A stretch of DNA of 24,292 nt from a virus, in the IMG/VR virus record IMGVR_UViG_3300042691_024438, positions 1 to 24,292 of that record; one strand, written 5' to 3'. The notes below the pieces were generated by a model. The model did no database searches, had not been told where the DNA came from, and was given only the letters and a program-made list of their open reading frames with translations. Positions 20,573 to 22,214 of the stretch are shown one piece after another (position 1 is the first letter of the stretch; each line of letters starts with the position of its first letter). The translations under genes and the position numbers were made by a program.

Positions 20573-20917
20573 ATGAACAAGACAAAATCATTTGTAAAAG
20601 AAATCGTAGCATTATTAAAAGGTGATGATGCTGAAGCAACAGGACAAAAAGTGTTAAGACAAGCTGATTCAGCTTTCAAAACTCAAATTGCATCATTAAC
20701 AGGAGATACTATTGCTCTTGAAGATAGACTAGAAGATGCTAAAGAAAATCTTAGACTTACAAGATTAAACTTTGGTCTTCAAATCACTGATAGAAATAGT
20801 TACATTAGAAGTTTATTAGATGCTAAGAATCTTTTAACTTCTTCTGAAGAAGCTCTTGAAGCACACATTGCTAAATTAGATTTCTTAAGAGAGCAAGCTG
20901 CTTTGTTAGAAGAATAA
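20573..20917 (+). CDS. 114-aa coiled-coil protein preceding the non-coding RNA
   Basis: The start is ATG 20573, preceded by TTTTAAAACC; upstream in-frame codons overlap the previous gene and are not needed. The protein is helical throughout: a head (KSFVKEIVALLKGDDAEATG), then long heptad regions (IALEDRLEDAKENLRLTRL and EALEAHIAKLDFLREQAALL). It probably forms a rod-like dimer. The -35 box of the promoter for the next unit lies within its last codons. No family is recognised. Confidence 0.6.
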   Translation: MNKTKSFVKEIVALLKGDDAEATGQKVLRQADSAFKTQIASLTGDTIALEDRLEDAKENLRLTRLNFGLQITDRNSYIRSLLDAKNLLTSSEEALEAHIAKLDFLREQAALLEE

Positions 20918-20932
20918 ATAAAATTGTATAAT
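20903..20932 (+). promoter_or_regulatory. Sigma70-like promoter for the structured RNA
   Basis: The -35 box TTGTTA (20903-20908) and a perfect -10 box TATAAT (20927-20932) are 18 bases apart. Transcription would start within GGGG (20937-20940), directly ahead of the first stem of the structured region. It has the same 18-base spacing as the promoter at 16288-16317. Confidence 0.6.
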
Positions 20933-20937
20933 CACTG

Positions 20938-21421
20938 GGGACTATAATCGCACATAAGCAGTTTAAATAGTCAATGTAATGTCTGCGTATCATTGAACTC
21001 ACCTATATTATACATAATAGCTAAGCTGTGTAAAGCGTCAGAACTTATAATCTGTTAGAAGCTAAAGGTTAAACATTAATCCTTTGTAATAGACTGTAAT
21101 AGGTCTTTAAGACAGAGTGCTACTTTACATAAAAGAAGTATTTTGCTTTACATAAAAATACTATCAGTAATGGTAGAACGTGAGTTGCCTTGAGAAAGCA
21201 ATTAAGTACTAAAATGTGGATAAAAAGTTAGTCTTGACCACACTTACGTAATGAGTTCTCAGCAAGTAGTGAGTCTAAAGCATTGAAGACTTTATATGGT
21301 AATAACCATTAACTACGTGACCCTACTCTTATGTCGCAAGACTATGGATAAGAAAGAGGGTGCTAATACAAGTTGATCATTGGTCAACAACACAACTGTG
21401 AAAAGTGCTCGTACATGCGAG
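20938..21421 (+). ncRNA. Large structured non-coding RNA candidate (about 480 nt)
   Basis: The 541-base gap 20918-21458 has no ORF on either strand but is dense in inverted repeats. Stems include 20941-20945/20967-20971, 20971-20976/20991-20996, 21064-21068/21081-21085 with an inner UUAA pair, 21137-21144/21155-21162 (8 bp), 21161-21165/21172-21176, 21183-21188/21198-21203, 21215-21219/21238-21242, 21272-21276/21287-21291, 21296-21300/21305-21309, 21372-21378/21382-21388 and 21408-21411/21418-21421. The best is a compound hairpin 21320-21361: ACCCT/AGGGT, TCTT/AAGA, then GTC-GCAA-GAC with a GNRA tetraloop. Some stems exclude each other by a base or two. A 12-base direct repeat CTTTACATAAAA is at 21123-21134 and 21146-21157. 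The 3' end is uncertain; the RNA might read into the ParB-like gene. Size and phage setting recall ROOL/GOLLD RNAs, but I cannot show membership. Confidence 0.62.
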
Positions 21422-21458
21422 ATTTATAAACAAATTAATAATTAAAAACACAGAACAC

Positions 21459-22214
21459 ATGAAAAAAACATTGGAAATTAAAACATTAAAAACTACAGGA
21501 AATAAAGGATTTTCTGTATTAGCTGGAATCAATAGAGTTATTGTTCCTAGTCACGTTACAAAATTAGCAAACTCATTAGAAAAAATGGGAGTTGTAAGAC
21601 CTGTTGTTGTATCAACAATTGATTTTGTTGATGGGAGTAAAAAAACATACATTATTGATGGACAACATTTGTATCATGCTTTAATAAGAATGGGTTGGGA
21701 TGTTCCTTATACAGAAATATCAATTAAAAATTCTGTTGATTTAGCTGAACATTTAGCATTATTAAATGCTAGCTCTAAATCATGGAGTATGAAAGATTAC
21801 ATCACTGTATGGGCTAATGTTAATAAAGACTACGTTAAATTGAATAAATATTTTAATACATATGATATTGAGCTTAATCAATTATCTGAAATATTAATGA
21901 ATAATTCTTGTATAGCACGTTCAGGTGGTAATAATGTTATATCTAAAAATATTAAAAGAGGTGAGTTTACTATTGATGATGAAAAACGTGCTGTTTATCT
22001 TCTTAATTGTGTAACTGATGCTCTTAAAATAGTTCCTAGAATGGATAGACTTAGTAATAAACTTTTTATTGCTAGCTATGTTAGTTTTATTAATACTTGT
22101 GTAAAATATGATCATGCACAGTTTATGTCTAGTTTAAAGTTACACAAAGACAAGTTTAAACTTTCTACACAAGATGAAGAAGAATTCAAAAAACTATTAA
22201 AATCAATATCATGA
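21459..22214 (+). CDS. ParB/Srx-like domain protein
   Basis: The start is ATG 21459 (MKKTLEIKTLKTTGNKGFSV), preceded by A-rich ACACAGAACAC. The product is 251 aa. Residues 25-90 match the ParB N-terminal/sulfiredoxin-like fold: IVPSHVTKLANSLEKMGVVRPVVV, then YIIDGQHLYHALIRMG (64-79) with the DGQH signature. The Arg that usually follows His in DGxHRxxA is replaced by Leu-Tyr, so catalysis or nucleotide binding may be lost or changed. The C-terminal part (100-251) is helical with no clear HTH. Such proteins act in DNA binding, partition, nicking or methylation control. It overlaps the next gene by four bases and lies just after the structured RNA. Confidence 0.75.
   Translation: MKKTLEIKTLKTTGNKGFSVLAGINRVIVPSHVTKLANSLEKMGVVRPVVVSTIDFVDGSKKTYIIDGQHLYHALIRMGWDVPYTEISIKNSVDLAEHLALLNASSKSWSMKDYITVWANVNKDYVKLNKYFNTYDIELNQLSEILMNNSCIARSGGNNVISKNIKRGEFTIDDEKRAVYLLNCVTDALKIVPRMDRLSNKLFIASYVSFINTCVKYDHAQFMSSLKLHKDKFKLSTQDEEEFKKLLKSIS

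Follow-up and report, generated by a model that had tools for sequence, protein, structure and literature searches.

An open reading frame ends at position 20917 of the window (the whole 24,292-nt stretch of viral DNA analysed here) and a ParB-like ORF begins with its ATG at 21459, leaving a gap of ~541 nt (20918-21458) in which a hairpin raises the question of whether a large folded RNA is encoded there or only a simple leader. The source of the window is a phage of the Crassvirales, with a capsid protein that hits Crass_capsid PF23898 (5e-29) and with a portal and a terminase that likewise hit phage families. The preliminary description of the locus had proposed a compound arm on the plus strand, and all of its segments are present: ACCCT (21320-21324) facing AGGGT (21357-21361), TCTT (21327-21330) facing AAGA (21350-21353), and GTC (21333-21335) facing GAC (21340-21342) around a GCAA loop (21336-21339). 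The middle stem of this arm, here called P8, comprises 6 bp (TCTTAT, 21327-21332, with ATAAGA, 21348-21353), and TATGG (21343-21347) forms a one-sided bulge. Judged solely by its folding energy, the arm exceeds chance only modestly (z -2.55 for the 46-nt arm, with 4 of 200 shuffles folding as well; z -1.36 and 16/200 for the 101 nt around it; z -1.65 and 7/100 for the whole gap), and it is the comparison with relatives that decides.

Relatives are numerous among phage sequences. BLASTN against 50,697 phage records matched Cellulophaga phage phi14:2 (Crassvirales) inside the conserved core described below and, solely within element B0, Flavobacterium elemo phages, the remaining matches being weak; two more BLASTN searches with relatives as query recovered phi14:2, in its GenBank and its RefSeq record, and no other phage. 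IMG/VR holds at least 120 stretches with a 14-mer from P8, many of them flanked by other conserved blocks, and at least 120 with an independent 17-mer from the pseudoknot block, while a scan in which the middle stem of P8 was left free gave 39 stretches. Anchored block parsing recovered at least 140 instances, at least 118 of them distinct, in 244 sequences, most of which are metagenome assemblies; all six blocks were present in 67, and blocks B3 and B4 were required for an instance to be counted, so that members without either are missed. The RNA takes up ~300 nt at window positions 21065-21366, with P8 as its 3′-terminal arm and a P3-P8 core of ~220 nt (Table 1).

Table 1. Parts of the RNA locus in the window, with window coordinates.
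Feature	Position	Strand	Description
Upstream element U	20924-21016	+	Two hairpins within the inverted repeat GTATAAT/ATTATAC; accompanies the locus
Leader element B0 (47 nt)	21018-21064	+	Stem TAGCT/AGCTA with two inner hairpins
P1 hairpin	21065-21084	+	AAGG/CCTT around the conserved loop TTAAACATTRA
P2 closing stem	21083-21156	+	TTTGTAA with TTTACATAAA around variable arm V1
P3 hairpin	21161-21176	+	CTATCA-GTAA-TGGTAG; conserved GNRA tetraloop
P4	21178-21249	+	21178-21184 with 21243-21249; encloses P5 and variable arm V2 (21202-21242)
P5 hairpin	21185-21201	+	TTGC-CTTGAGAAA-GCAA; stem 21185-21188 with 21198-21201
Pseudoknot	21190-21262	+	P5 loop TTGAGAA (21190-21196) with TTCTCAG (21256-21262)
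P7	21266-21316	+	21266-21272 with 21310-21316; encloses variable arm V3
P8	21320-21361	+	Conserved base and exchangeable tip V4 (GTC-GCAA-GAC in the window)
P8 3′ flank	21362-21366	+	GCTAA; near-invariant in alignments A1 and A2
Tail hairpin after the core	21372-21388	+	GTTGATCATTGGTCAAC; also in L229 (P3-P8 absent) and L084

Pairing in these relatives was counted cell by cell and compared with shuffled controls. The outer stem of P8 (P8a, ACCCT/AGGGT) is kept in homologues, being paired in 544 of 555 cells from 111 distinct relatives with nine two-sided changes (maximum of five in 200 shuffles); in the subset retrieved with a different motif, 399 of 410 cells are paired and eight two-sided changes stand against a mean of 1.5 and a maximum of five in 200 shuffles. 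For P8b the anchored count gave 518 of 777 cells paired (67%) and 73 two-sided changes (shuffle maximum 64). Over the 118 distinct instances P4 has 699 of its 826 cells paired and 111 two-sided changes (maximum of 42 in 200 shuffles), and P7 has 743 of 819 paired and 44 such changes (shuffle maximum 15); P5 is paired in 451/590 cells and the pseudoknot in 691/708. A stem of at least three pairs was found for P1 in 64 of 66 cases by a script that used the best register and so favours pairing, and the exact 5-nt complement of P2 in 42 of 74.

For an alignment-based test, 27 of the 118 instances were kept by arm length and anchor mismatches, the mismatch limits favouring conserved members. Alignment A1 (26 members) excludes L111, which clusters with L172 in V2, V3 and V4 alike, and A2 (24 members) further excludes the window and L091, where MAFFT had misaligned the 3′ strand of P4 in A1. 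On A2, with the window thus held out, 93.9% of cells are paired (82.8% when shuffled), two-sided changes are seen at 27 of 42 pairs (mean of 9.8 after shuffling) and covariation is 0.312, against 0.107 for shuffled and at most 0.086 for slid versions. All four P5 pairs show two-sided change, with 95.8% of cells paired, and so do five of the six P3 pairs; helix 8 is paired in 75% of cells, and this shortfall, like that of P8b in the anchored count, stems partly from indels. The pseudoknot is paired in 98.8% of cells with one-sided changes only, and by reading, the divergent relative L114 has GGCA/TGCC in its place. Reading of the sequences alone suggested a candidate second pseudoknot, CATT of the P1 loop with AATG on the 5′ side of the first one; the two segments are near-invariant. 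The model built from A2 (R1) found the held-out window at 164 bits (E 8.9e-47), the held-out L091 at 158 bits, phi14:2 at 131 and L114 at 65. What the phages carry is thus a large RNA whose secondary structure is conserved with compensatory changes, a structured family with a core of P3, P4, P5, P7, P8 and the pseudoknot, preceded by P1, and we regard this as practically certain.

The preliminary description had reasoned from the GCAA loop of P8 to a large RNA with higher-order structure. Its conclusion stands, the argument does not: a GNRA loop appears in the predicted P8 fold of only 9 of 111 relatives, and the exact tip of the window (GTC-GCAA-GAC) recurs in two other contigs only, L050 and L069, because the tip of P8 is an exchangeable cassette. 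The suggested look for a conserved GNRA loop and a matching receptor in homologues led elsewhere, as no receptor was identified and the conserved GNRA loop lies in P3, ~160 nt upstream of the GCAA (GTAA, 21167-21170 in the window; 72 of 75 instances, on 26 distinct stem sequences). That the P3 loop docks into P8a, with CCCU/AGGG as the candidate receptor, is only a suggestion.

R1 also served to survey whole records, of which 35 out of 40 match the ~300-nt RNA, mostly as a single copy (two or three matches in records G007, G039 and G026); the five records without a match belong to loci fetched by leader element B0 alone. A crAss capsid was found in 17 of the 40 records searched, 15 of these 17 having the core, and of the 35 core-bearing records 20 gave no crAss capsid match in the same search, contigs of 256-373 kb among them. 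The carriers are Crassvirales and larger phages in which no crAss capsid was found, from a 100-kb isolate genome to 373-kb contigs. An exact-match scan of a cellular genome collection with a 17-base pattern returned only four chance-like stretches, none from Bacteroidota by title and none above 15.8 bits with R1, and the family therefore looks phage-borne. The phi14:2 copy lies in the ~2.9-3.4 kb region of that genome (locus L002, 2911-3365). Three short minus-strand ORFs, gp007-gp009 of phi14:2 (KC821624; L002 3106-3431), are annotated over this RNA or next to it and probably do not represent genuine genes.

Set into this constant core are the side arms V1-V4, mostly tens of nucleotides and at most ~110 nt long, which differ between close relatives and recur between distant ones. 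At 80% identity 32 pairs of members share V2, 60 share V3 and 43 share V4; restricted to arms of at least 20 nt, the counts are 32, 39 and 42 pairs, with no pair in any of three shuffled sets per arm. Sharing is not concerted: three pairs share both V3 and V4, 45 share V3 only and 40 V4 only, and for the other combinations, too, pairs that share one arm rarely share another. Flanks match over at least 200 nt in 13 of the 60 V3-sharing and 15 of the 43 V4-sharing pairs, most pairs having no such match. Arms also change place and carrier, the V1 of L182 being identical to the V3 of L188 over 46/46 nt, and the V4 of the crAss-like L139 and L149 recurring at 88-93% in L182, whose 322-kb record has no crAss capsid found. 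Conversely, L008 and L229 have matched flanks that for the most part share 82-93% identity with the window, two pieces being at 74-77%, yet L008 has different arms, and L229 keeps B0, P1 and a V1 identical to that of the window but lacks P3-P8, in place of which a tRNA-Leu-like gene can be read (not listed by ARAGORN). A resemblance of the arms to tRNA T-arms was tried as well and dropped, with one hit each in 74, 117, 116 and 110 arms for V1-V4 (mono-shuffle means 0.20, 0.06, 0.32 and 0.15).

Two arms are also present within a different RNA element. Element X, ~105 nt closed by TTACCAA/TTGGTAA, occurs in 11 stretches (L149, L184, L092, L086 and L251-L257), and four of the ten copies inspected contain an insert; one insert matches a P8/V4 hairpin over 51/54 nt and another a V3 arm over 43/45, so that arms move between different RNA elements. 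We conclude with high confidence that members which otherwise differ exchange V1-V4 as complete cassettes. It is conceivable, if hardly the likelier case, that misassembly, or the usual mosaicism of phages acting on short identical segments of the core, accounts for most of the exchanges and that diversity is not selected for. Between the arms the core runs for 20-30 nt with almost no variation, and such segments would favour recombination and misassembly alike; since most sequences are metagenome assemblies, some exchanges could be assembly chimeras. Such artefacts sit poorly with the same arm occurring in a different RNA element and at another position of the ~300-nt RNA, and with the many different sample numbers of the contigs; ordinary mosaicism may nonetheless be the mechanism of exchange. 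More tentatively, the data may reflect a combinatorial diversification of RNA, in which phages would draw folded arms from a shared pool, insert them at set positions in a number of constant cores and in tRNA/tmRNA leaders, and swap them across unrelated lineages, tracking changing host factors.

Other parts of the locus also lead lives of their own. Upstream element U recurs in L149, L184 and L229, followed by different elements each time (fold z only -1.01). Leader element B0 has 38 distinct copies at up to two mismatches, 16 of them with a core within 500 nt; others often stand 0-2 nt before a tRNA, as with tRNA-Ala in L003 (4003-4049), L204 and L232, or run straight into tmRNA-like sequence. 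In unrelated phages, L213, L218 and L219 among them, B0 lies directly 5′ of tRNA-Ala, tRNA-Leu-like or tmRNA-like sequence or the core, and it is a possible processing or insulator element. The domain of P4, P5 and the pseudoknot occurs alone in ten copies in eight stretches, several running into tRNA-like sequence; such stand-alone copies, sometimes in tandem, lie in large tRNA arrays (L085, L246, L245, L248-L250 and L024). By reading, element X stands directly before tRNA, tmRNA or similar sequence, or before P1. A hairpin leader, ATTGACTGCTAGGAAAGACTAGCA, is found shortly 5′ of different tRNA-like genes in L229 and L008, and group I introns are present at L213 2766-2989 and L221 10151-10375, in two records that both have B0 before tmRNA- or tRNA-like sequence.

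Around the core itself, proximity to tRNA and tmRNA genes is frequent, not universal. Such a gene lies within 300 nt of 25 of the 118 cores, always on the same strand, in 12 cases a tmRNA and in 19 of the 25 on the 3′ side; random positions in the same contigs give 13.3/118, so that the observed number is only about twofold higher. The remaining 93 cores, including that of the window, have no detected tRNA or tmRNA within this distance, which contig or locus ends explain in some cases. The most serious alternative to a trans-acting RNA is that the ~300-nt RNA, B0, X and the stand-alone P4/P5 domain are cis-acting 5′ structural leaders of tRNA/tmRNA transcripts, serving to insulate folding or to flag where processing occurs and having no existence of their own. 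The placement of B0, X and the stand-alone domain immediately before tRNA- or tmRNA-like sequence agrees with such leaders, as do the 12 nearby tmRNAs and the 3′ position of most neighbouring genes, whereas the 93 cores with no such neighbour do not, and the elaborate core seems more than an insulator requires; we consider this explanation rather unlikely. A riboswitch-like leader of the downstream ParB-like gene is still less plausible, to the point of being nearly negligible. In the window the ParB-like ATG follows the end of the RNA by 92 nt, and the same gene comes next in three members (the window, L008 and L180), but 78 ORFs downstream of relatives sort into 61 groups, and in other members tmRNA or tRNA genes follow, so that the neighbour survey largely refutes a ParB leader. 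With this diversity, with a pseudoknot, and with seven helices that show compensatory changes, the earlier view that the arm does not belong to a simple leader is borne out.

Taken as a whole, the observations are in our judgement best, and somewhat probably, explained by P8 being an arm of a phage RNA family with a constant core, exchanged arms and a role as a scaffold in trans. The RNA would be transcribed together with tRNA/tmRNA genes and then cut out, and the excised molecule would serve as a trans-acting scaffold on which exchangeable arms are displayed. Its core might bind a partner that every host has, possibly the translation machinery, whereas the arms might contact something host-specific or rapidly changing, possibly a defence protein or a nuclease; recombination that swaps arms would therefore be favoured. 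Action in trans, which we infer only from position and the lack of a shared neighbour gene, is to us an evenly balanced proposition, and a putative role in anti-defence or translation is speculative and on present indications doubtful.

Known RNA families do not account for the locus. In the window, ARAGORN and Rfam gave no tRNA or tmRNA and Rfam 15 no family; at E up to 10 the RNA region had only three Rfam matches, all at chance level. Weak Rfam matches, such as CAESAR at E 0.95, were put down to chance. In 15 relatives searched with Rfam at E up to 1 the core remained unmatched, and only neighbouring tRNA, tmRNA and group I introns were found. A catalytic RNA or intron remnant (group I, group II or a new ribozyme) might be suspected from the pseudoknotted core with its conserved unpaired stretches and from the group I introns near such elements in L213 and L221. 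We think it improbable, given cores that match neither group I nor group II models, group-II-D1D4-1 in 0 of 35 records and no exon continuity seen. No paper describing the RNA was found among titles and abstract beginnings, and PMC10136315 mentions neither noncoding RNA nor tmRNA; an unnamed earlier sighting is possible, for instance among the candidates tabulated in PMC8040213. The ~300-nt RNA has thus apparently not yet been described, and very likely not under an Rfam 15 name.

A family with at least 118 distinct copies is covered by no Rfam 15 entry and brings the large RNAs of phages, so far GOLLD and ROOL, to three. Some of the most abundant phages known belong to the Crassvirales, and with phi14:2 and its host Cellulophaga baltica a system for tests can be grown in culture. 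The unusual point is the exchange of arms, which provides a natural combinatorial library and makes the functions of core and arms separable by experiment.

Of the known systems, ROOL and GOLLD form multimers and invite the closest comparison. PMC12286853 describes GOLLD as a large phage RNA often near tRNA genes, with a conserved and a variable part and with tRNAs that can occupy a linker, and as a 14-mer cage in cryo-EM; ROOL is described there as another large RNA associated with phages and lying close to tRNA genes, its function being unknown. Like GOLLD, the RNA found here is large, structured and phage-borne, often lies near tRNA genes and has a conserved and a variable part; unlike GOLLD, it bears exchanged arm cassettes on a ~220-nt core and has no sequence or structure match to it. 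With ROOL it shares the phage carriers, the large size and the tRNA-gene neighbourhood, again with no model match. Neither the GOLLD (RF02032) nor the ROOL (RF03087) model matched the window region at E up to 10 or the 15 relatives at E up to 1; in whole records ROOL was found in 0 of 35, in a search in which the positive controls were also silent. Two of the 35 core-bearing records also have GOLLD, in a gene of its own and at distances of 6.6 and 26 kb from the ~300-nt RNA (288 and 273 bits; G013:C1:263007-263413 in the 322-kb record of L182 and G024:C1:207804-208211 in the 282-kb record of L239), so that the functions of the two can be compared within one genome. A divergent member of GOLLD or ROOL would fit the carriers, size class and tRNA/tmRNA neighbourhood, but is very improbable in view of the missing Rfam match and of bona fide GOLLD elsewhere in these two records. 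Phage tRNA/tmRNA islands are a second parallel: the ~300-nt RNA and its companion elements share the strand within such islands, but by ARAGORN and Rfam it is neither tRNA nor tmRNA. Phage tail-fibre modules, finally, have variable cassettes between conserved anchors that are exchanged between lineages. The exchanged units here are instead folded arms of a non-coding RNA, and combinatorial diversification of arms, if that reading is true, would be the RNA counterpart of tail-fibre cassette switching.
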